DNA of 23,037 nucleotides from a virus: positions 1 to 23,037 of the IMG/VR virus record IMGVR_UViG_3300025280_000182; one strand, written 5' to 3'. The first letter of the stretch is position 1, and each line of letters begins with the position of its first letter. Below are positions 4,751 through 23,037 of this stretch, one piece after another. The notes beneath the pieces are model-generated. The model saw nothing but the letters and a program-made list of their open reading frames with translations. It ran no database searches and was not told the DNA's origin. The position numbers and the translations under genes were made by a program.

Positions 4751-5695
4751 TTATGACACCTGTGCGCCAACAACCCATCTCCAGTCATTGAAGTCACAAC
4801 CGTACCTGACGTACCCGCGTTCCTTCATGACCATCGTGTCGAAGTCGTTGAACATTTCCATCTCGAACGACTCGCGGTTCCACCACGTCAGGGCTTGTTT
4901 CATCCGGCGAGAATCGATCAGGAAGTAGTTGTTCGTCTCGCTGTTGTCGTCACCCGTCAGGTAATCCCACTGGAGGAGCCGATACTGGCCCTGATGGACG
5001 TTGGGATTGTTGTTCGAGGTGTCAACCTTCCCCGCCGCCGCAATGATCTCATATGCGGTTGCATAAAGATCGGGCGGAATCAGGATGGTATCGGGATTGA
5101 TTCCGCCCATCCGTAGCGAGGCTGGATTCCTGAACTTCGACATCAGGATTCGCATGGTAATAAGGTTCACGGCAGAAAGAGCAGTCGTGACCAGATTGTC
5201 GAATCCCGTCGTGGTGCTGGTCCCACTGTTGGTCGTGTGGGAGTTCGAGCAAAGCGCAACAGCCTCGGACTGGCTGTAAAAATACGAGTCCGACTGGAAC
5301 GCAAGCCGGAAGACCCGAGAAGCGTTATGCTCTTCGAGATCCTGGAAGGAATCCCTGAGAAGAGTCGGCAAACGCTCGATAGCACCATATTGATCGTCCC
5401 GCATCAGCTTCCGCTGGATCTGGAAACCGCCCGCGAACTCACGGGGGGTGGCAATCACATCGTATCCCTGTGACTGGGACTGATACGTGATTGACTGGTT
5501 GCTGGTGGTGCCAAACTCACTCGGACGACCAAACGGCTCCATCTGCGACTGCCGCTCATCCGCCTTCGTGGTGGTCTTCACCGTATAGAATTCCGGCAAC
5601 ATCGCGTCAGGTGGCTCAGTCCACCGCATTAAGATTTCTCTGAAACGGGTATCCAGCAGATCTGGATGGCTTCCCGCTGTCATCGGTACGGCCAT
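4751..5695 (-). CDS. Major capsid protein
   Basis: 314 residues, ATG at 5693-5695 with AAGGAGA eight bases upstream. The sequence has the character of an HK97-fold capsid subunit of the Mu gpT-like type: an N-terminal arm (TRFREILMRW ... MLPEFYTVKTT), then FGRPSEFGTTSNQSITYQSQ, a central helix with EEHNASRVFRLAF, SHTTNSGTSTTTGFDNLVT, INPDTILIPPDLYATAYEII, and a C-terminal domain with NYFLIDSRRMKQALTWWNRE and KERGYVRYGCDFNDWRWVVG. Ligand loops such as 'P-D-LIPP-L' and a closing 'G-DW-R-V-G' are typical of this group; the assignment is by pattern, not alignment. It follows the scaffold-like and decoration-like genes and has its own upstream terminator-like hairpin, which would allow separate control of its level. 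Confidence 0.85.
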   Translation of the reverse strand: MAVPMTAGSHPDLLDTRFREILMRWTEPPDAMLPEFYTVKTTTKADERQSQMEPFGRPSEFGTTSNQSITYQSQSQGYDVIATPREFAGGFQIQRKLMRDDQYGAIERLPTLLRDSFQDLEEHNASRVFRLAFQSDSYFYSQSEAVALCSNSHTTNSGTSTTTGFDNLVTTALSAVNLITMRILMSKFRNPASLRMGGINPDTILIPPDLYATAYEIIAAAGKVDTSNNNPNVHQGQYRLLQWDYLTGDDNSETNNYFLIDSRRMKQALTWWNRESFEMEMFNDFDTMVMKERGYVRYGCDFNDWRWVVGAQVS

Positions 5696-8107: not shown

Positions 8108-8315
8108 CTTTCAATTCTCCCCTTGATCCTTGTTTTCCAATCTCAATTCCCTTTTCCAACCACTGAAAGATTTTCTTCTTTCCGAAAAACATTTCCCCTG
8201 CATAGAATTCCCGCGTTCCCTTTGAAACCTCCGCTTTCATCACTTGCCGTTCCACGTATTCAATTTCTCTATTCAGGTGGAACTTCAAAATCTCCCATCC
8301 CGGTGTCCTCTTCAT
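8100..8315 (-). CDS. Small helical protein between portal and scaffold
   Basis: 71 residues from the ATG at 8313-8315 (MKRTPGWEILKFHLNREIEY), overlapping the end of the portal gene by 47 bases and the scaffold start by 8. An in-frame ATG at 8388-8390 has a better ribosome binding site (GGAGG) and would add 25 residues, but it would overlap the portal by 122 bases; that purine run may be chance within the portal's EEMNG codons. The protein is amphipathic-helical and charged (VERQVMKAEVSKGTREFYAG). Small genes in this slot are common in phage head operons. Function unknown; the start is uncertain. Confidence 0.65.
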   Translation of the reverse strand: MKRTPGWEILKFHLNREIEYVERQVMKAEVSKGTREFYAGEMFFGKKKIFQWLEKGIEIGKQGSRGELKDG

Positions 8316-10749
8316 ATTCCACAGGTGGCGGGCCTGTATCCCCTGCTCGTCGTCCCGGAACTGGGGCGGGCCCTCCATTGGCAGTTCCATTCATTTCCTC
8401 CCGACCCGCCTGGTTTAGGGCGTTGAAAGATGCCACATCCACGGCATCCGTATCAACAACAGCTTTTTTGATCTGTTGGGACTTGAGCTGAATATCCGCA
8501 ACGCCCGCCTGTAGATCCATTCTTATCCTTGCTATCCTCTCCTGTGCGCGGGCGATGATGTCCTGAACATTGGCCTTGCTCACTTCGATCTCGGCCTGTC
8601 CCTTCGCCTGCTCCAACTGTGCCTCGGCCTTCATCAGTTGAGCCTGGAGTTCCTGCATCTGGCTCGCTGACTGGGCTTGCTGTTCCAGCAGTTGAATTAC
8701 CTTATCCGGCAGAATCTCGTCTGCGTCTTTTCTATTGAAATCATGGAGCATTGACCGAATATATGTGACCACTCCGGGTGGATAGACCTGTGCAAGCACC
8801 GGAAGAAGGCTCTGGGAAAGAAGCATTGACTGTTGCATTCTCAGTTGCTTGTTCCCGGACACCGGGTCGCCAAGGAACCGGAAATCAAACTGGCCCCTGA
8901 TCTCCTCGCGGGTGAATTCCCTGAATGGATTTAGCGGATGTTGCTGTCCCGATAGGTGGGGCGGAATACCAAGGCCCATTTTGGCTTGCGGGGCAAGCGG
9001 AGGTCCGCCGCCTCCCGGCTCTTGTTGTGTAGCGGCCATCATCTGCTCTTCGGGACTCATGCCCATCTGCGCCTGACCGTTCATGCCCTGGCCTTGCTGA
9101 AGAGCCATCATCATTTGCTGTTCTTGCGGGTTCATTCCCGGCTGGGGTTGCCCACCAGGGCCTTGGCCCGGTTGCGGTGGCCCACCAGGGCCTTGGCCCG
9201 GTTGAATCTGTTGCGCGAGTTTGGGATTGACCTTGATCTCGAATCCGTCCGGCATGAATGCCTGGTAAAGCTGAAACATCATGGTGATGATTTCACTGGC
9301 GGCGGACTGGAACCGCCTGTTCTTGATCTCAAAACCCATCGCACCTTCGCCGAGCGTTCCCTGGAATTCGGCGGCGGATGCCCTTGAGCTTGGATTCAGC
9401 TTTCCAAGAAAAGCGTCAGACACCCCGGTAACAGTCTCGGTCTTTCTCTCGATGAACTGTATAAGCGTACTGAACACGGGGCCATAATCTGGAAGTGTCG
9501 GGAAGGTAATTCTTGCACCTTCGGGAACCGGGATGAGCTTTCCAAGTTCGAGTGTGATCGGGCCTTCTTCAAGAGAATCCGACTCGTAAGCCCCGGTCAT
9601 CGCATTGATGAGCGTCGCCCTGTCGATGAACTGGTTCAGAAGGGTATTGGTGATGTCGTCCAGATGGCCGATCCATTCAGCCACACCTTTTCCATAGGGT
9701 GACTGCGGGCGAGGGGTATATCTGCCAATGACGATTGGGCGTTTCCCGTGCGGATGCACCTCATCAAGATAAGCGGCCTGGAGAAGCGTTTCCGTCTCGA
9801 CGTGAACGGTGAAAACCACCTCTTCGAGCAATCCGTCCTTGTCAATGTCATAAGCCCCGTGCCACTTGTAGGCTCTTCGCTTGTTGCGGCCCGGAGTGGA
9901 GATGACACCCTCGCTTGAATCCTGTTCCTCTTTCGTTTCGGTCGGAGACGAGCTATCATCCCGCTTCTCGAATTGCTTGACACTCTCGAAATCCTTGCGG
10001 GTCATGACATTGTATGCGCCGGTCTTGTACCGTCTGGCGATGGCATCGAAGGGCAACCAGACCTGAAGAATGACCCAGTCAGCCTCTCCCGCCTGAACCC
10101 CCGTTGCGTCCGAGGGAAGGATGACATTTTCCGTGTCAATCATGTCAACCCATGCGCCCTCAAAGATAACCTCTTCCTGCTTTTCAATGAATTCATTTCC
10201 ATCCAGGTCTGTAATGACGCTCGGGATGTTTCGAACCTGGCGTTTCCAGTAAACATGCGCCGCGTAATCTCCCCTTGGGGGAATTGCGGCGGCGAACTCA
10301 AGTTTTTCGTAGAGATTCAAGCGGTCATCGGTAACAAGCCATTCAACAAACTGGCGGGCGGCAGGAATTCTCGAAATGTCATCAGATCCAACCGCCGTCA
10401 CGTCCATGATCTGGGAGACACCGAAGATTGAAGCCATGTAACGGGCGGCGGTGGCAAACGAAGCAACGGCAACGGCAGGGAGCTTTATGTTGGATGCGCC
10501 CTCCCAGGGCCAGGTCTTGGACTCGGTTTCCATCTCCAGACGCTTGATCGCGTCACGGCGTTTCGATAACCAGTCGGACCTGGCTTCCATGCCAGCCTTG
10601 GCATCAGCAATGACCATGCGGGCAATCTTCTCCCGCTCGGTCTTGCTTAACCGGATTTCTATCTCTGGCCGCTCCTCATCCGACCGACCTGGTACGGGAG
10701 CGTCGAGATCGATGGCTACAGATGCTGATTCTTCAATATCATCAAGCAA
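8269..10749 (-). CDS. Portal protein (P22-like group)
   Basis: 826 residues, about the size of the large podovirus portals. The frame opens at TTG 10747-10749 with AGGGG upstream; no ATG lies nearby in frame. Recognisable portal features: WPWEGASNIKLPAVAVASFA (the 'wp-Ga-n-k-P' box), RYMASIFG, DYAAHVYWKRQVRN, VILPSDATGVQAGEADWVIL, HPHGKRPIVIGRYTPRPQSP, GVAEWIGHLDDITNTLLNQF (the wing/stem region), then GVSDAFLGKLNPSSRASAAE. Residues about 511-586 are a Gln/Gly/Pro/Met-rich low-complexity insert with DNA-level repeats. The C-terminal 100 residues are a Gln/Ala/Glu coiled coil, as in P22 portal barrels. The protein forms the dodecameric DNA entry ring at one capsid vertex (family knowledge). Confidence 0.88.
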   Translation of the reverse strand: MLDDIEESASVAIDLDAPVPGRSDEERPEIEIRLSKTEREKIARMVIADAKAGMEARSDWLSKRRDAIKRLEMETESKTWPWEGASNIKLPAVAVASFATAARYMASIFGVSQIMDVTAVGSDDISRIPAARQFVEWLVTDDRLNLYEKLEFAAAIPPRGDYAAHVYWKRQVRNIPSVITDLDGNEFIEKQEEVIFEGAWVDMIDTENVILPSDATGVQAGEADWVILQVWLPFDAIARRYKTGAYNVMTRKDFESVKQFEKRDDSSSPTETKEEQDSSEGVISTPGRNKRRAYKWHGAYDIDKDGLLEEVVFTVHVETETLLQAAYLDEVHPHGKRPIVIGRYTPRPQSPYGKGVAEWIGHLDDITNTLLNQFIDRATLINAMTGAYESDSLEEGPITLELGKLIPVPEGARITFPTLPDYGPVFSTLIQFIERKTETVTGVSDAFLGKLNPSSRASAAEFQGTLGEGAMGFEIKNRRFQSAASEIITMMFQLYQAFMPDGFEIKVNPKLAQQIQPGQGPGGPPQPGQGPGGQPQPGMNPQEQQMMMALQQGQGMNGQAQMGMSPEEQMMAATQQEPGGGGPPLAPQAKMGLGIPPHLSGQQHPLNPFREFTREEIRGQFDFRFLGDPVSGNKQLRMQQSMLLSQSLLPVLAQVYPPGVVTYIRSMLHDFNRKDADEILPDKVIQLLEQQAQSASQMQELQAQLMKAEAQLEQAKGQAEIEVSKANVQDIIARAQERIARIRMDLQAGVADIQLKSQQIKKAVVDTDAVDVASFNALNQAGREEMNGTANGGPAPVPGRRAGDTGPPPVEYEEDTGMGDFEVPPE
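9151..9204 (-). repeat. Tandem repeat inside the portal low-complexity insert
   Basis: A 24-base block at 9151-9174 recurs exactly at 9181-9204 (period 30 bases, 10 residues; encoded core QPGQGPGG). The flanking sequence encodes further Gln/Gly/Met/Pro-rich runs. Such repeats expand or contract by slippage and probably form a flexible loop in the portal. Confidence 0.8.
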
Positions 10750-12677: not shown

Positions 12678-14285
12678 TCAGTATCCCGTGCTTTGAGCAA
12701 TTCCACGGCGAATATCACTGGCTTTGGAATCCCGAATACTGTCCTGGAATCTCCTTGTTGGCTCCACGTAGGCACGGCCCTGCCGCGCAATGCGTTCCTC
12801 GATGTAGCGCAGGCAGTCAGGATGGTCCCGATTCACCTCCTTCAGCTTGTCTGTCCTCGATTTCTCATAAATCGAGTGCCTGGAACTGTCATCCCACTGG
12901 ACACGGCGCATCTGGTGAATCAAACCATACTTTTCACCCTGCCTGCCGACTTCAATTTTCCCGCAGGCTCCGCGAAAGAACATGATCGATGGGATTTCCC
13001 GCTTTTCGAACGTGTCGTACTCCGGTTTAAGGCCCTTCTTGACAATCCTTACCCCGATTCCCACCGATCCGGGGGATGAGTTGCTTAATTTGATGTTTCT
13101 GAGTCCGGCACGCTCAAGTTCCCGCTTCCAGGACGTCCTGTGTCCACTTACCACGGACGGCTCCTCGGCGGCTTTTCGGTCAATTACGGTCCAGAACGGG
13201 TCGTTTCCGCCATGCTCGGCCCTTTTTGCCTTGATAGCCTGGACCAGTTCCCTCGGACCCCCGTCCACCACAAGCTGATCGTAGTAATACCGCCGTCCCT
13301 CCCGATTAACAGCACAGAAAACAATGCACGACGGCCTCGATCCGTGCGGATCTATGGCCTCATAACGGGTCCATTCCCACGGAATGGGGAAATCCTCGAC
13401 CATATGAGCCTCGCCAATCTCGGGATACGCCACGCCAGCCAGATGAGAGAAGATTCCTTTTTCCCGCGCCAACCTTTCTTCAGGGGGAACCGTCTTCAAG
13501 AACGCCTCTATCTGGTCCCGGCGCAGATGACCCCCGGTGTCAGCGCAGTTTTCCCATATTTCCACCCGCCGGACGTGAATGTTCTTGTCCTCATCCTCCT
13601 GATCACACAGCTCGGAGTCCACCCACGGCTCAATCAGGGGTGTCATGGTGAAAAACGCAATCCCGTCACGTGCCATCAACCCACGCTTGGTCGCCGTCCA
13701 TAACTTGTGAGGGGGGGGCTCGTCAAAACCCGCAATATCAAAGGTTTTCCCCTCAAAAGCCATCGAATCCTGCTGGTATGAGTTGAAATATAGCGTGTTT
13801 CTAAGATTCGGGTTGCAAAGACTCGGAACAGAAGTGGGATCGAAGAACCTGAAGCTGAATCCGCGTATATGTCCGCCATTCTTTATCGGTTCCGCCATGC
13901 CCTCGGGAAGAAGCTCGTAAAACTTTCGTAAATACGTCTGTTCCAGCCAGTTATCGAAGTCCGGGCCGCTCTGAACGCCGATCAGCGGCGGTCCCCAACG
14001 CCCATCCTTCCCGTCCTTCCGGTTCTCAAGGGGCCACCAGTCAGGATATATCTGCATCATGTGGCAAAGCATCTCGAAGATGGCAAAAGTCGTCTTTCCA
14101 GACTGGTTACCACCCGGGATCACCCGTATGGACTGCGGATGGCCCCGGGAATGCTCCTCCTTCTGCCACGGCAGGGGATTATGGAACATCATCGGCTGAA
14201 TGCGCCGAGCCTCGCGCTCCCGAAGCTCCGCTACGCCCAGATCTCGGATTTCTTCACGACTCATGCCGTCAAGAAGACCAGGCAT
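12678..14285 (-). CDS. terL: Terminase large subunit (packaging ATPase-nuclease)
   Basis: 535 residues from the ATG at 14283-14285 with GGGGAG seven bases upstream (a TTG five codons earlier is less likely). The ATPase domain has Walker A GGNQSGKT (about residues 58-65) and Walker B FDIAGFDE (about 182-189), followed by PPPHKLW and the motif III region FFTMTPL. The RNase H-like nuclease domain shows three acidic positions: D312 in YEAIDPHG, D369 in TVIDRKAAEE, and a C-terminal aspartate near residue 490 in DHPDCLRYI. It pumps and cuts phage DNA at the portal (family knowledge). All key motifs are intact. No certain small-terminase gene is adjacent; the HTH protein at 18.0-18.5 kb is the only candidate. 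Confidence 0.93.
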   Translation of the reverse strand: MPGLLDGMSREEIRDLGVAELREREARRIQPMMFHNPLPWQKEEHSRGHPQSIRVIPGGNQSGKTTFAIFEMLCHMMQIYPDWWPLENRKDGKDGRWGPPLIGVQSGPDFDNWLEQTYLRKFYELLPEGMAEPIKNGGHIRGFSFRFFDPTSVPSLCNPNLRNTLYFNSYQQDSMAFEGKTFDIAGFDEPPPHKLWTATKRGLMARDGIAFFTMTPLIEPWVDSELCDQEDEDKNIHVRRVEIWENCADTGGHLRRDQIEAFLKTVPPEERLAREKGIFSHLAGVAYPEIGEAHMVEDFPIPWEWTRYEAIDPHGSRPSCIVFCAVNREGRRYYYDQLVVDGGPRELVQAIKAKRAEHGGNDPFWTVIDRKAAEEPSVVSGHRTSWKRELERAGLRNIKLSNSSPGSVGIGVRIVKKGLKPEYDTFEKREIPSIMFFRGACGKIEVGRQGEKYGLIHQMRRVQWDDSSRHSIYEKSRTDKLKEVNRDHPDCLRYIEERIARQGRAYVEPTRRFQDSIRDSKASDIRRGIAQSTGY

Positions 14286-14309
14286 CCTATTGCTCCCCAA
14301 ATACAGGTA

Positions 14310-14591: not shown

Positions 14592-14829
14592 TCTCCATCC
14601 TCATGAGGGCTATCTTCTGGCAGAAATCCGACTTCCGCGCTACCGGATGATGCTCGCACTCCCAGGCACTCAAAGAGGCCAGATACAACAAAAACACCGT
14701 CCCCGCAACCAATATCCCCACCCACCACCACCAGCGATATGCCAGAAACCACCATAGTTCGCGGAGGAAAACCAACCCCTCAGAGCCTTGGATTGTAGTT
14801 TTCGAGATAAATCTCTGTCCAGGCACCAA
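14578..14829 (-). CDS. Small single-pass membrane protein
   Basis: Up to 83 residues. The frame opens at TTG (14827-14829) or the adjacent GTG, both after AGGGG; a TTG at 14773-14775 just after the upstream stop is a shorter alternative. One clear hydrophobic helix (WWWWVGILVAGTVFLLYLAS) is preceded by an aromatic-rich stretch (ELWWFLAYRW) and followed by a hydrophilic tail with two Cys (WECEHHPVARKSDFC). It overlaps the upstream gene by up to 50 bases and the downstream one by 14. Size and topology would suit a lysis accessory protein or a small membrane modulator; no lysis enzyme is in the window to support the first. Confidence 0.55.
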   Translation of the reverse strand: MVPGQRFISKTTIQGSEGLVFLRELWWFLAYRWWWWVGILVAGTVFLLYLASLSAWECEHHPVARKSDFCQKIALMRMENDGS

Positions 14830-15325
14830 TTCGACCCCTGATCAACCAGTAAAGAGCCGCTTCCGCCGGAAATCCCAGGGCCAAACAAACAGAACCCGTG
14901 TAACAGGCCGCATTGGGAAAGACCTTCTTGCCGCTTTCGTGGAGTATGTCCGTGATTTCCCTTATCCTGTCCCAGATGTCCCGGTTCCTTACACATAGAA
15001 CACGGTCAATCCTCGAAAGCTCCGGGTCAGGTCTGCCTTTCACGAAACCAGAACCCCAACCAGGAACCAAACGCTTCCCCTTGATTCTGAGCCTCGCCTC
15101 TTCTGCGTAAGAAGACCCGGAAAGGAATCTCACTACCTGGCTCACAGGCCCGTGAACCCCCCCGATAGCAAGCATCCCAGCAGCAATGGATGAAATGTAG
15201 TCCTTCTCAGCCGTCGCGTACTGGGAAATGACAACCGAGCTTAGATTCTCCCTCCTCGCTAACCGATCGTGGACCAACATCAACTCGTCAACCAGAACCC
15301 CGCCTAGCTCCCGAAGAAGAACCAT
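14780..15325 (-). CDS. Citrate-synthase-like protein lacking two catalytic residues
   Basis: 181 residues matching the C-terminal half of citrate/2-methylcitrate synthase or citryl-CoA lyase relatives in order: DELMLVHDRLARRENLSS (the 'L-vlhaDHe-n-S' helix), ISSIAAGMLAIGGVHGPVSQ ('-a-aaGi-al-G-lHGGan'), LVPGWGSGFVKGRPDPEL ('i-GfGHrvyk--DPRa'), FPNAACYTGSVCLALGFP ('-pNvDfysg-v---lGip'), LYWLIRGRIGAWTEIYLE ('lf-iaR--GW-AH--E'). The 'HGG' His is kept (H58), but the GHR His is replaced (GSG, 91-93) and the Asp of 'NvDfy' is Ala (NAA, 138-140). Citrate synthases are about 370-430 residues, so this is a half-length, probably non-catalytic relative. It may bind acyl-CoA or have a new role. ATG at 15323-15325; the ribosome binding site is weak. 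Confidence 0.7.
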   Translation of the reverse strand: MVLLRELGGVLVDELMLVHDRLARRENLSSVVISQYATAEKDYISSIAAGMLAIGGVHGPVSQVVRFLSGSSYAEEARLRIKGKRLVPGWGSGFVKGRPDPELSRIDRVLCVRNRDIWDRIREITDILHESGKKVFPNAACYTGSVCLALGFPAEAALYWLIRGRIGAWTEIYLENYNPRL

Positions 15326-17169: not shown

Positions 17170-17330
17170 GGGAAAAATGGGCTAAATTGAAAAAAAATGA
17201 AAAAAAATATAGGCCGACAAATACAAGATTTTGGCACAGAGATTGCAAGAAACATCTGGGGCCTGCTAACTGTTAACAGTCAACTGTGATGTTTGGGGGG
17301 CGAAATTGTTAACAATCGGCAATCGACTGT

Positions 17331-17407
17331 GGGCTGTTGACAGTGGGCTGTTGACAGTGGACTGTTGACAGTGGACTGTGGGCTGTTGACAGTGAACTGT
17401 TGACTGT
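17331..17407. repeat. Sub-array of 14-base units (GGGCTGTTGACAGT type)
   Basis: Consecutive units at 17331, 17345 and 17359, a half unit at 17373, then 17380 and 17394. Each is two heptamers (GGRCTGT + TGACAGT). The half unit shows that 7 bases is the true period. Each unit carries an imperfect dyad ACTGTTGACAGT. Confidence 0.85.
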
Positions 17408-17472
17408 CAACAATCGGCGGTTGACTGTTGACAGAAAAAAACCGGCTGCTAACTGTTAACAGTCAATTGTCA

Positions 17473-17542
17473 TCGGTTTGCTGCTGTCGGTTTGCTGTTA
17501 TCGGTTTGCTGTTATCGGTTTGCTGCTGTCGGTTTGCTGTTA
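17473..17542. repeat. Five tandem 14-base units (TCGGTTTGCTGYTR)
   Basis: Units start at 17473, 17487, 17501, 17515 and 17529 with no indels. They alternate only at the last positions (CTG or TTA). The array then runs straight into three overlapping GTTAAC words (17538-17560). Related single copies occur near 17563-17585 and 17637. The exact 14-base phase suggests recent amplification. Confidence 0.88.
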
Positions 17543-17888
17543 ACAGTTAACAGTTAACAGTTGTCGGTTTGCTGTCATCGGTTTGCGGTGGAAAAAAAGC
17601 TGTTAACTGTTAACAATCGACTGTTGACAGTTCTCATCGGTTTGCCGCTAAAAGAAAAAAACAAAAAAAACTGTTAACAATCGACAGATGGCAGATTTCT
17701 GTCGGTTTGGTGGGTCAAACTGTTAACAGTTGGCTGTCAACAATCGACTGTCATTTGGTTGTTTGGGGGGCAAAACTGTTAACAATCGACTGTCAACAGT
17801 TGACTGTGCCGTGGGGGGGGCAAAACTGTTAACAGTTGGCTGTTTACAATAGACAGTGAATAGTATGCTGCTTATCTGAGCCGGGGCG

Positions 17889-19389: not shown

Positions 19390-19632
19390 ATGACCAAGAA
19401 CATGATCAAGGAAAGAACTACCATCAGAGATGCGGTCTCGAAGGTCTTCGACCGGCTGGCCCAATACTCATCGAGCTTCGGAGGCGTCGCACAGGCCTCT
19501 GAGGATATCCTGCACGTCATCGACACGGTCGCCTACAAGGAGTTCGACCCCGACCTGGAAGAACTGGTTGGCAAGCTGAGATGGCACCTCGACAAGGCCT
19601 ACAAGGAGGGACTGATATCTGACTGGCGGTAA
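19390..19632 (+). CDS. Small helical hypothetical protein, first gene of the ATPase operon
   Basis: 80 residues, ATG at 19390-19392 with AGGAG seven bases upstream. A frame open to 19276 exists, but its extra residues translate the upstream hairpin. Sequence MTKNMIKERTTIRDAVSKVF, then SEDILHVIDTVAYKEFDPDL and ELVGKLRWHLDKAYKEGLIS: entirely helical, no membrane segment or metal motif. It is separated from the next gene by the first covarying leader element. Family not recognised; it probably serves the same module. Confidence 0.75.
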   Translation: MTKNMIKERTTIRDAVSKVFDRLAQYSSSFGGVAQASEDILHVIDTVAYKEFDPDLEELVGKLRWHLDKAYKEGLISDWR

Positions 19633-19717
19633 CCCGGTGAGCCACCCGCCCCCCCCCGGGGGGCGGGCGTAACCCCCTGAACCCGGTGGCAAGGCCGGGG
19701 AGAAAAGGAGATCAGAT
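19633..19717 (+). promoter_or_regulatory. Repeated structured leader element, copy 1
   Basis: Starts right after the stop codon. The conserved block GGTGAGCCA is followed by a 10-bp stem CCCGCCCCCC (19645-19654) / GGGGGGCGGG (19658-19667), then CGTAACCC, then a second small stem CCCGG ... CCGGG whose loop contains TGGCAAGG, then AAAAGGAG before the next ATG. It is homologous to 20618-20720, and the main stem differs there by two compensatory pair changes. Confidence 0.75.
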
Positions 19718-20617
19718 ATGAGCCAGTCGATAGATAAGAGCCTTGGTATTCAATCCCGCTACATGCTGGCCAGCCTTGAAATCAAAGGCTGGTCGGGTCG
19801 GGCGTACGACGCCAAGGCGTCCGCCGAGGTCGCCGTCGCCCACAACGCCCCGGTGGACTCGGGGCGGTACAACAAGATGCTTGTCGCCAGGGACGCGATG
19901 GCCGAGCGCAAACGCAATTCTGGGAAGGCCCGCAAGTTCCACTATGACTCAAGCCTGGAATGGCGGAAGCCCTGGAGACTGCTTCCCGGCAAGGCTTTCA
20001 CGGATTACTCCCGAACGATGCGGGAGTTCATGGCGACTGACCAACGGCTGGTCAAACAGTTCCTGGCGGTATATCCCGACTTGATCGAGGACGCCAAGCG
20101 GAGGCTAAACGGGATGTTCGATCCCGCTGACTACCCGGCCCCCGACTCCATCGGCGAGTTCTTCAGCTTTGAGAATTCGATCGAGGCCATCTCTGACCCG
20201 GGCGACTTTCGGGTGGCCCTCCAGGCGGATGAGGTATCGACCATCAAGGCCGAGATGACCCGGTCCCACCGGGCCTCCATCGAGACCGCCCAGAAGGAGA
20301 TCTGGGGGCGCGTCCAGACTGTCGTCCGGCACATGGCGGACAAGCTCAAAAGCTACGACGTCGGCGCGGACGGCAAGGTCGAAAGCCCGTTCCGAGACAC
20401 GCTGGTCTCGAACATCTCGGGGCTGTTGGATATCCTCCCCGGGCTCAACGTAAAGCAGGATCCCAACCTCACGGCCATCGCCGAGGAGATACGGCGTGAG
20501 GTGCTGGGGACGACTGGAGACCCGCAAGCCTTGCGGGACTCCAAACTCCTGCGTACCCAGGTCGCCGAGTCCGCCGAGGCGGTGCTGGAGCGCATGGCCG
20601 GATTCATGGACCGCTAA
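19718..20617 (+). CDS. DUF3150-like partner of the MoxR ATPase
   Basis: 299 residues, ATG at 19718 with AAAAGGAG upstream. Mostly helical and soluble. The N-terminal 60 residues (SLGIQSRYMLASLEIKGWSG ... VDSGRYNKMLVARDAMAERK) look like the conserved start of phage DUF3150 proteins, followed by FTDYSRTMREFMATDQRLVK, FLAVYPDLIEDAKRRLNGMF, the FDPADYPAPDSIGEFFSFEN box and DPGDFRVAL. DUF3150-type genes are commonly found next to MoxR/CobS-like ATPases and VWA proteins in phages, as here (recollection, not searched). Function unknown; it may be the substrate or adaptor of the ATPase. Covarying leader elements flank it on both sides. Confidence 0.65.
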   Translation: MSQSIDKSLGIQSRYMLASLEIKGWSGRAYDAKASAEVAVAHNAPVDSGRYNKMLVARDAMAERKRNSGKARKFHYDSSLEWRKPWRLLPGKAFTDYSRTMREFMATDQRLVKQFLAVYPDLIEDAKRRLNGMFDPADYPAPDSIGEFFSFENSIEAISDPGDFRVALQADEVSTIKAEMTRSHRASIETAQKEIWGRVQTVVRHMADKLKSYDVGADGKVESPFRDTLVSNISGLLDILPGLNVKQDPNLTAIAEEIRREVLGTTGDPQALRDSKLLRTQVAESAEAVLERMAGFMDR

Positions 20618-20720
20618 CACGGTGAGCCACTCACCCCCCGGCCCGGGGGGTGAGCGTAACCCGCAAGCCCGGTGGCAAGCCCGGGCGCAAGGGACAACCC
20701 TAGCAGGAGGAGAACGGGAC
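20618..20720 (+). promoter_or_regulatory. Repeated structured leader element, copy 2
   Basis: GGTGAGCCA is followed by the stem CTCACCCCCC (20630-20639) / GGGGGGTGAG (20645-20654). Compared with copy 1, stem position 2 changes from C-G to T-A and position 4 from G-C to A-T, so pairing is kept. Then CGTAACCC, then GCCCGG / CCGGGC around TGGCAAGC, then AGGG/CCCT, then GGAGGAGAACGGG before the ATPase start. Confidence 0.78.
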
Positions 20721-21794
20721 ATGGCAACAACGAGACCCAACATTGAGAAGGTGAAGCCCTCGCAACTCAAGAAACACCTGGAGGTTGCACTGCTCACCCT
20801 GGCCGAGGAGAACCCCCTGGTTATCATGGTCTGGGGAGAGCCGGGGCTGGGCAAGTCGGCCATCGTCCGACAGGTGGCCGAGGATAACGGCCTGGAGTTC
20901 CGGTCGGTCATCGGCTCGCTGATGGAGCCGTCGGATCTGATGGGCATCCCCAGCGTGGAGAACGGCGTGACAAGCTGGAACCCCCCGGCGTTCTTCCCCC
21001 GTGAGTCCTCGTCACGGGGCATCATGTTCCTCGACGAGGCGACAACCTGTCGCCCAGACGTGCAAGCCGCCATGCTCGGGCTGGTCTACGGGCGCAAGCT
21101 CGGTGAGTACCGTCTCCCCGATGGCTGGCTCATCGTCATGGCGGGCAACGGCTACGCCGACCGGGCGATGGTCAACAAATTTTCAAGCGCGACGAATAAT
21201 CGCGTGACCCACGCCGAGTTAATCCCCGACGTGGACGACTGGTGCCGGTGGGCGGTCCCCAACGGCGTCGCACCGGAGGTCATCGCCTGGGTCCGGTTCC
21301 GCCCGGGGCTCCTGCATCGGTTCGACGCAGACGCGAACCCCCATGCGTGGCCCTCCTGTCGGTCCAACCATCAACTCTCCACCGTCCTGAAACACACTCC
21401 CGATGAGCCGGGAGAGGGTGGCAACCGGGCGACCCTGCGTAGCCTGATCTGCGCTACCATCGGAGAGGGGCCGGGGTCAGAGTTCATGGGCTTTCTGGAC
21501 GTGTGGAAGAACCTCCCCCGCTTCGACCGGATCGTTCACGATCCGGTTGGGACGCCCACGCCGGACCCGTCCCGGGCGGACGTGTGCTGGGCGACGGCGT
21601 CCATGTGTTCCCGACTCGCCACCGTCGAGAACCTGTCGGCGGTCTGGGCCTACGTAAAGCGGTTCCCATCGCGTGAGTTTCAGGTTGTGTGGGGGCGCGA
21701 CCTCGTGGCGCGGTCGCCGGAGTTGGCCGAGACCCCGGCGTACATCGACTGGGCCGTTCAGCACCAGGACGCCCATGTCGGATACGGCGGCTAA
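20721..21794 (+). CDS. MoxR/CobS-type AAA+ ATPase
   Basis: 357 residues from the ATG at 20721, chosen for its GGAGGAG binding site; the frame is open to 20496 but upstream is the neighbour's shadow. Walker A GEPGLGKS (39-46), Walker B IMFLDEAT (101-108), sensor 1 VMAGNGY (139-145), an arginine-finger candidate in NNRVTH (R161), and HAWPSCRSNHQLST (208-221) in the sensor-2 region. EPSDLMGIPSVENGVTSWNP is the 'dl-G-----g-----pg' box of MoxR/AAA_5 proteins. MoxR ATPases act as hexameric remodelers with VWA-domain partners, as in RavA-ViaA or CobS-CobT (family knowledge). The next gene encodes just such a partner. The C-terminal 130 residues are a helical lid. All ATPase motifs look intact. Confidence 0.9.
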   Translation: MATTRPNIEKVKPSQLKKHLEVALLTLAEENPLVIMVWGEPGLGKSAIVRQVAEDNGLEFRSVIGSLMEPSDLMGIPSVENGVTSWNPPAFFPRESSSRGIMFLDEATTCRPDVQAAMLGLVYGRKLGEYRLPDGWLIVMAGNGYADRAMVNKFSSATNNRVTHAELIPDVDDWCRWAVPNGVAPEVIAWVRFRPGLLHRFDADANPHAWPSCRSNHQLSTVLKHTPDEPGEGGNRATLRSLICATIGEGPGSEFMGFLDVWKNLPRFDRIVHDPVGTPTPDPSRADVCWATASMCSRLATVENLSAVWAYVKRFPSREFQVVWGRDLVARSPELAETPAYIDWAVQHQDAHVGYGG

Positions 21795-21881
21795 TGCTTA
21801 ATTGAATCTACTCGGGCTCTCGACGGCGGTCGAGGGCCTGGGCCGATTCAATCCGGGATCGGAAGAGCAGGAGGAGGAGAC
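21795..21881 (+). promoter_or_regulatory. Third intergenic hairpin of the operon
   Basis: Outer arms ATTGAATC (21801-21808) and GATTCAAT (21845-21852) enclose the 9-bp stem GCTCTCGAC (21816-21824) / GTCGAGGGC (21829-21837, one G-T pair) with a GGCG loop. It is unrelated in sequence to the two GGTGAGCC elements but occupies the same place, before GGAGGAGGAGAC and the next ATG. Confidence 0.6.
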
Positions 21882-23037
21882 ATGGGAACCAACCCGATGC
21901 ATCGCTCAGGATGGGGCGACGACCCAGATGGGAACGAGGAGTACTGGGCTAACTCGGCCCGGGGAGTGGACGTGGAGGAGATCGAAGAGGTGGCCGAGGA
22001 GACCCAGAAGGCGGTTGCCTCGTTCGCCAAAAACAAGGCCGGGGAGAAGGTCGCCCTGGCGCGTAAGCGGCTCATCCTCGACCACCCATTTTTCGGGTCG
22101 GTGGCGATGAGCATGGAGCTTGTCGAGGATGAGGCCATCCCGACATTCGCCACCGATGGAAAGACCATCCGGTACAACGCCGGATACCTCGCCGACCTCA
22201 CCGTCGGCGAGACCATCACAATCCTCGCGCATGAGTGCATGCACGTCGTCCTGGGTCACCAGTTTCGCCGAGGCGAGCGCGACCACGCAGAATTTAACAT
22301 CGCATGCGACCACGCAGTTAACCCGCATCTGAAGGAATCCGGCAGGTTCGATTGGCCGGAAGGCGGGCTCTACGATCCGAGGTTCACCGGCTGGTCCGCC
22401 GAGGCGATCCACGAAGACCTTTTTGGGGGCGGGCCGGAGCCGGAGCCTGGGCCGGAGCCTGGAGGCGAGGGCGAGGGCGAGGGCGAGGGTGGCGACCAGG
22501 ACGGCCCTGGCGACCCAGACGCCCCGGGCGACCAGGACGACCCAGACGCCCCGGGCGACCAGGACGACCCAGACGCCCCGGGCGACCAGGACGACCCAGA
22601 CGCCCCGGCGGGCGACCCGGGCAACCGGAAGGCCGAACCGCCCGCCCGGTGGGGAGACGTGGAGGACGCCAAGGACGACGATGGCAAAGACCTGTCGCCG
22701 TCGGACAAGGCCGAGGCTGAAGCCGAAAACCGGATCAAGGTGATCCAGTCAGCGCAGGTCGCCCGGGGGATGGGCGACTTGCCCGGATGCATCGAGCGAC
22801 TGGTCGGCGAGATCGTCGAGCCGAAAAAGGACTGGCGCGAGGTTCTTCGACGCCTGATCGATCAGGCGTCCGCGCAAGCCCGCTCGACGTGGAACAGGCC
22901 CAACCGGCGGTTCGTCGCCAGCGGGCCGTACCTCCCGGGGACGCTCCGGGAGGGCGTCTCGCATCTCGTCGTCGCCGTGGACACGTCGGGCTCGATCGAC
23001 CGGCGGGCTCTCGATGCCTTCAGCGCGGAGATTGGCA
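21882..23037 (+). CDS. HExxH metallopeptidase-VWA protein (DUF2201-like), partial
   Basis: 385 residues to the window edge, ATG at 21882 after GGAGGAGGAG. The N-terminal domain has TITILAHECMHVVLGHQFRR with HExxH at 117-121 and His126, plus EFNIACDHAVNPHL downstream, the layout of DUF2201-type N-terminal metallopeptidase domains. Residues about 182-250 are an acidic Gly/Glu then Asp/Pro repeat linker (a 27-base DNA repeat). Helices follow (DKAEAEAENRIKVIQSAQVA, then GEIVEPKKDWREVLRRLIDQ), then TWNRPNRRF. HLVVAVDTSGSIDRRALDAF (361-380) opens a VWA-like domain with the MIDAS D-x-S-G-S. It pairs with the upstream MoxR ATPase; MIDAS-VWA partners usually recruit such ATPases. The substrate is unknown. 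The C terminus is missing. Confidence 0.88.
   Translation, partial: MGTNPMHRSGWGDDPDGNEEYWANSARGVDVEEIEEVAEETQKAVASFAKNKAGEKVALARKRLILDHPFFGSVAMSMELVEDEAIPTFATDGKTIRYNAGYLADLTVGETITILAHECMHVVLGHQFRRGERDHAEFNIACDHAVNPHLKESGRFDWPEGGLYDPRFTGWSAEAIHEDLFGGGPEPEPGPEPGGEGEGEGEGGDQDGPGDPDAPGDQDDPDAPGDQDDPDAPGDQDDPDAPAGDPGNRKAEPPARWGDVEDAKDDDGKDLSPSDKAEAEAENRIKVIQSAQVARGMGDLPGCIERLVGEIVEPKKDWREVLRRLIDQASAQARSTWNRPNRRFVASGPYLPGTLREGVSHLVVAVDTSGSIDRRALDAFSAEIG
22518..22604 (+). repeat. Tandem 27-base repeat in the metallopeptidase-VWA linker
   Basis: Three exact units start at 22518, 22545 and 22572, then a partial one. Each encodes DAPGDQDDP. Just upstream, GAGGGC hexamers (about 22464-22490) encode GE repeats. 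It forms a flexible, highly acidic linker between protease-like and VWA domains, prone to length change by slippage. Confidence 0.88.

Follow-up and report, generated by a model that had tools for sequence, protein, structure and literature searches.

Described relatives of the locus

Pairs of a MoxR ATPase and a metallopeptidase-vWA protein have been described from jumbo phages as previously unrecognized, and were proposed to act in virion assembly and, along with it, in the processing of peptides (Iyer et al. 2021, PMC7824862). The phage N4 proteins gp24 and gp25, which sequence comparison identifies as the same pair, figure in the core-gene table of the Schitoviridae, gp25 by one of three methods (Wittmann et al. 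2020, PMC7650795). Beyond phages, NorD combines an N-domain, a disordered or flexible linker and a VWA domain, and acts through its MIDAS as the adaptor which binds the target for the NorQ ring (PMC9976466). The MoxR-vWA ternary conflict systems encode a MoxR ATPase, a vWA protein and a third protein in each operon (Kaur et al. 2020, PMC7159879).

The window analyzed here, an entire 23-kb virus record (23,037 nucleotides), encodes a pair of this type (genes A and V) together with a third gene, D. The A-V pair is already known from other phages and is not new; D as its constant partner appears to be new, and the usual site of the block beside DNA-replication genes appears to be undescribed, as judged from the open-licence literature. 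N4 gp24/gp25 resemble the window pair in their families, in their adjacency on one strand and in their HExxH and MIDAS motifs, but a D gene is found nowhere in N4. The pair of the group 2.2 jumbo phages likewise consists of a two-domain V and a MoxR partner, but those examined lack D, and the virion role proposed for them contrasts with the tracking of replication genes by the window-type block. The NorQ/NorD, CbbQ/CbbO and RavA/ViaA systems present a comparable combination of an AAA+ ring with a MIDAS VWA adaptor, and the layout of V is like that of NorD, except that the N-domain of V is a metallopeptidase. To our knowledge, no HExxH peptidase domain has been reported in NorD, and systems of the NorQ/NorD type have no D-like third partner. 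Unlike the ternary conflict systems, where the third part is a VMAP, iSTAND or propeller protein and effectors are swapped on the vWA protein, the window block has a DUF3150-like third part, and the peptidase of V is N-terminal and constant. Two narrower assignments were rejected: a MoxR-vWA-beta-propeller conflict system, as the bpMoxR model (PF20030) scored 24.6 bits on A, under its 27-bit cut-off, and D is mostly helical with no propeller; and a CobNST or magnesium chelatase system, as V matches DUF2201 and a Pfam scan returned no CobT or chelatase model for it.

Organization of the locus and its three conserved genes

The head and packaging genes of the window lie on the minus strand and include, on the basis of domain and family searches, the terminase large subunit (12678-14300), an SU10-like portal (8269-10749), the capsid (4751-5695) and an SU10-type adaptor domain (within 1026-2159). 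D (19718..20617), A (20721..21794) and V (21882..23037, truncated at the contig end) are on the plus strand, pointing away from this structural module, and each start is preceded by a good ribosome-binding site (AAGGAG in the case of D). The preliminary description had included in the operon a fourth gene, the plus-strand 80-residue ORF at 19390..19632; this ORF has a plausible ribosome-binding site, but zero relatives in any of the 129 loci having both D and V, leaving it outside a conserved block of three genes.

Gene A encodes a 357-aa MoxR-type AAA+ ATPase (AAA_5, 3.7e-9; phrog_1297, 9.7e-81) related to N4 gp24. As had been described from the letters of the window, its ATPase motifs are intact: the residues G44, G46 and K47 of the Walker A motif (GEPGLGKS, 20835..20858), D107 and E108 of the Walker B motif (IMFLDE, 21021..21038) and A143-G144-N145 of sensor 1 (AGN, 21141..21149) are all invariant in alignment A1. 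Additionally, A has the conserved arginines R163 and R216. Midasin is the nearest to A among solved sequences, and tblastn recovers relatives of A in 821 phage records. An initial scan using A alone as a single protein gave no matches. A swap of the ATPase in the window phage was also considered and set aside: a FastTree phylogeny put A, at 0.89, among the N4-type ATPases, whereas its placement stayed unresolved in a careful analysis with IQ-TREE.

The product of gene V shows an N-terminal metallopeptidase domain, DUF2201_N (PF13203, 5.8e-54), an acidic low-complexity linker and the start of a VWA domain, of which the first 23 positions of PF09967 are covered; the protein belongs to the DUF2201 metallopeptidase-VWA family (also phrog_1314, 6e-67), and its full-length relatives contain both domains. 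This bears out the earlier identification of an HExxH domain joined to a MIDAS VWA domain. The structure model likewise resolves into a metallopeptidase, a disordered linker and a VWA domain, the last of which matches MDN1-MIDAS and NorQD structures in Foldseek. Conservation of the zinc-site motif (HECMH, 22230..22244, plus strand) had been set beforehand as a refuting test, and among the distinct V sequences of the D-seeded loci, a sample selected independently of the V motif, 53 of 54 retain HExxH. Within this sample H117, H121, H126 and D143 are present in 54/54 and E118 in 53/54, with N147 likewise conserved. The MIDAS DxSxS motif (DTSGS, 22980..22994, plus strand) is found in 50/50 distinct sequences from the D-seeded loci, and the MIDAS T and D in 111/111 and 112/112, respectively, across all distinct V proteins; as the contig stops inside the VWA domain, the T and D of the window V itself fall outside the window. 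Relatives of V were recovered by tblastn in 399 phage records. RefSeq and PHROGs name the gp25/phrog_1314 family "HNH endonuclease". Judged by its sequence this is a misnomer: a Pfam scan of N4 gp25 (L002:6212-7354) found PF13203 (3e-87) and PF09967 (1e-46), and did not find an HNH domain. The A-V pair, counted among the core genes of the Schitoviridae, occurs in hundreds of phages.

Gene D encodes a 299-aa protein with a predicted mostly helical, long-helix fold (AF2 pLDDT 94). A Pfam search with the window D gave zero matches; among its relatives, one (L101) reaches PF11348 DUF3150 at 25.7 bits against a cut-off of 24.9, with others under the cut-off, and the model aligns to a viral "DUF3150 domain-containing protein" in BFVD with a TM of 0.83. 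Hence, the label DUF3150-like, given in the preliminary description, is right, with D a candidate member of the family. Solved structures resembling D were not found (best E 0.39), and a search of open-licence literature gave no mention of DUF3150. In 32 mainly Planctomycete loci, a D homologue has a different AAA+ ATPase nearby in 25, within 600 bases in 20, which suggests that D is a general AAA+ partner. In these Planctomycete and related genomes (L230-L261) the DUF3150-like genes are mostly near a PF00004 AAA+ ATPase, not MoxR-VWA, and Paludisphaera soli has several copies.

Co-occurrence of the three genes in viruses and plasmids

With the D proteins of the window, of two further phages and of four plasmids combined in one profile, 174 viral loci were retrieved. 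Planktothrix phage Pra-JY27 is one example of a D-bearing phage. Counts were made on the best 80 of these 174 (IMG/VR), which are the most window-D-like and not independent of each other. All three genes are present on one strand in 75 of the 80, the remaining five breaking at contig ends; with the window included, the gene order is A-D-V in 63, D-A-V in 9 and A-V-D in 4. The co-occurrence anticipated earlier is thus upheld for D, A and V, and, on one strand, it speaks against chance. In the converse sampling of 80 V-seeded loci, all three genes occur in 49 and A and V only in 24, so that D is not universal. N4, phage G and the jumbo phages examined likewise keep A and V but lack D, showing that it is not needed everywhere. 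The ATPase tree gave no support for D having arisen only once, the label requiring at least three changes, and the one ORF compared from those D-minus loci with an ORF of ~300 aa between A and V gave no match to a divergent D.

The A-D-V block is also carried by conjugative plasmids of Burkholderiales: it is seen in 46 of 48 Burkholderiales or MAG loci, the other two being cut at a contig edge, and 35 of the 48 plasmid or contig loci adjoin VirB11/VirB4 homologues. PRTRC is found upstream of the block in two plasmids; a general association of the plasmid copies with PRTRC was set aside, the flanks being too short to bear on it. In one Paraburkholderia clade (L014, L193, L199, L203) HExxH has given way to LKxxQ, it was lost separately in L200 (QLxxH), and L212 has HDxxH; all six retain DxSxS-T-D. 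At least two losses of HExxH have occurred in plasmid copies retaining the MIDAS, A and D, so that in some plasmids the remodelling core has persisted after the peptidase site disappeared. Two plasmids, Synechocystis pSYSA and one from Sphaerotilus (L016, L020), have an A-V pair without D, near DUF262 and, on pSYSA, also near toxin-antitoxin-like genes.

Genomic context of the block

Strands were tallied by hand in 28 long D-bearing records. The terminase (PF03237; some matches under the family cut-off) was located in 12 of the 28 and lies on the strand opposite to the block in 12/12, whereas DNA polymerase A, located in 22, shares the strand of the block in 21/22 (the exception being G012). 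In a separate tally of distinct loci, for which the terminases of the window and of two relatives served as queries, the terminase was opposite every time. In these mid-sized D-bearing phages the block belongs with the replication genes and not the packaging genes, a pattern that tells against virion maturation and favours, for these phages, an early or replication role.

Functional inferences

The gene content, motif integrity, co-occurrence and strand context of the block are established, and we consider, at about even confidence, that A, D and V work as subunits of a single MoxR/VWA-type, ATP-powered protein-remodelling machine with a built-in metallopeptidase and, probably, an early or replication target. 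A would assemble as an AAA+ ring; the MIDAS VWA domain of V, on its flexible linker, could serve, by analogy with NorQ/NorD, its best parallel, as the adaptor holding the target to the ring; and the zinc metallopeptidase domain of V may be able to cut the remodelled target. D would add a third, dedicated subunit, which most likely serves the AAA+ ring as an adaptor or scaffold. As the block is situated with DNA-replication genes and not with packaging genes, the protein acted upon is probably one encountered early or during replication. Coupling of ATPase-driven remodelling to cleavage, as put forward in the preliminary description, remains the leading inference given the conserved HExxH and the co-occurring genes; however, as plasmid copies have lost HExxH with all else kept, cleavage would not always be required and may be secondary. 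A broader formulation, which we regard as unlikely, is that of a hitherto undescribed three-subunit ATP-dependent metalloprotease (AAA+ ring, DUF3150 subunit and HExxH-VWA adaptor-protease), found in phages as well as conjugative plasmids, which would clear away or cleave the proteins that sit on mobile-element DNA at replication or transfer.

The published alternative (PMC7824862, which cites an archaeal virus MoxR-VWA pair) is a virion-assembly chaperone and protease that remodels and trims structural proteins. The A-V pair of one Asteriusvirus jumbo phage does adjoin genes annotated as structural. However, this explanation seems doubtful in light of the strand tallies given above, of the N4-like phages, in which the pair comes after the RNAP II genes, and of the conjugative plasmids, which make no virions and yet carry the block adjoining type IV secretion genes. 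The constant third partner and the replication-strand context make virion maturation a less expected role and define a concrete complex to reconstitute. The early-strand location could accommodate a factor for host take-over or counter-defence, acting by unfolding or cutting a protein of the host or of a rival, with the pSYSA and Sphaerotilus neighbourhoods as further indications. Such an anti-host, inter-phage or conflict role, also raised in the preliminary description, is not borne out and is quite improbable: the A-V pair is a Schitoviridae core component (PMC7650795) rather than an accessory one, the block keeps a steady position with replication genes and is carried by many plasmids, variable effector domains are absent, and a PADLOC 2.0 search of A, D and V matched only DolB (0.0075), a trivial hit across 32 P-loop residues.

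Comparably improbable is a non-proteolytic chaperone or metal/cofactor-insertion pair of NorQD or CobST-like type, with the HExxH domain a structural or metal-handling relic. Insertion or chaperoning is the typical job of MoxR/VWA pairs (PMC9976466), and some plasmid copies have lost HExxH with the rest intact; against this, the HExxH, the third-ligand candidates and N147 are nearly invariant in phages, and V is without a match to CobT or chelatase models.

Additional features of the window

GC content rises in a sharp step at ~19000, from ~0.54 in the structural module to 0.62-0.71 in the A-D-V block; in the comparison with the terminase (0.55), the block has 0.62-0.67. The difference between block and terminase in the window (~10 points) exceeds all 39 comparisons in relatives (mean difference -0.01, sd 0.04); owing to this unusual excess, the window block may be a recent acquisition, or there may be an assembly join near 19 kb. 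Two near-alike GC-rich intergenic hairpins (GGTGAGCCAC...GCGTAACCC...CCCGGTGGCAAG) precede D (19636-19700) and A (20621-20690). Between the divergent modules, a stretch of ~600 nt that lacks 50-aa ORFs (17250-17870) is made up of degenerate heptamers (ACTGTTA, ACAGTTG, ACTGTCA, CGGTTTG) spaced by 7/14 nt, a possible origin or regulatory array. Finally, amid the phage structural module, the minus strand at 14780-15325 encodes a 181-aa protein with matches to citrate synthase (PF00285, 33.5 bits; PDB, E 0.001) in the C-terminal half of that enzyme.
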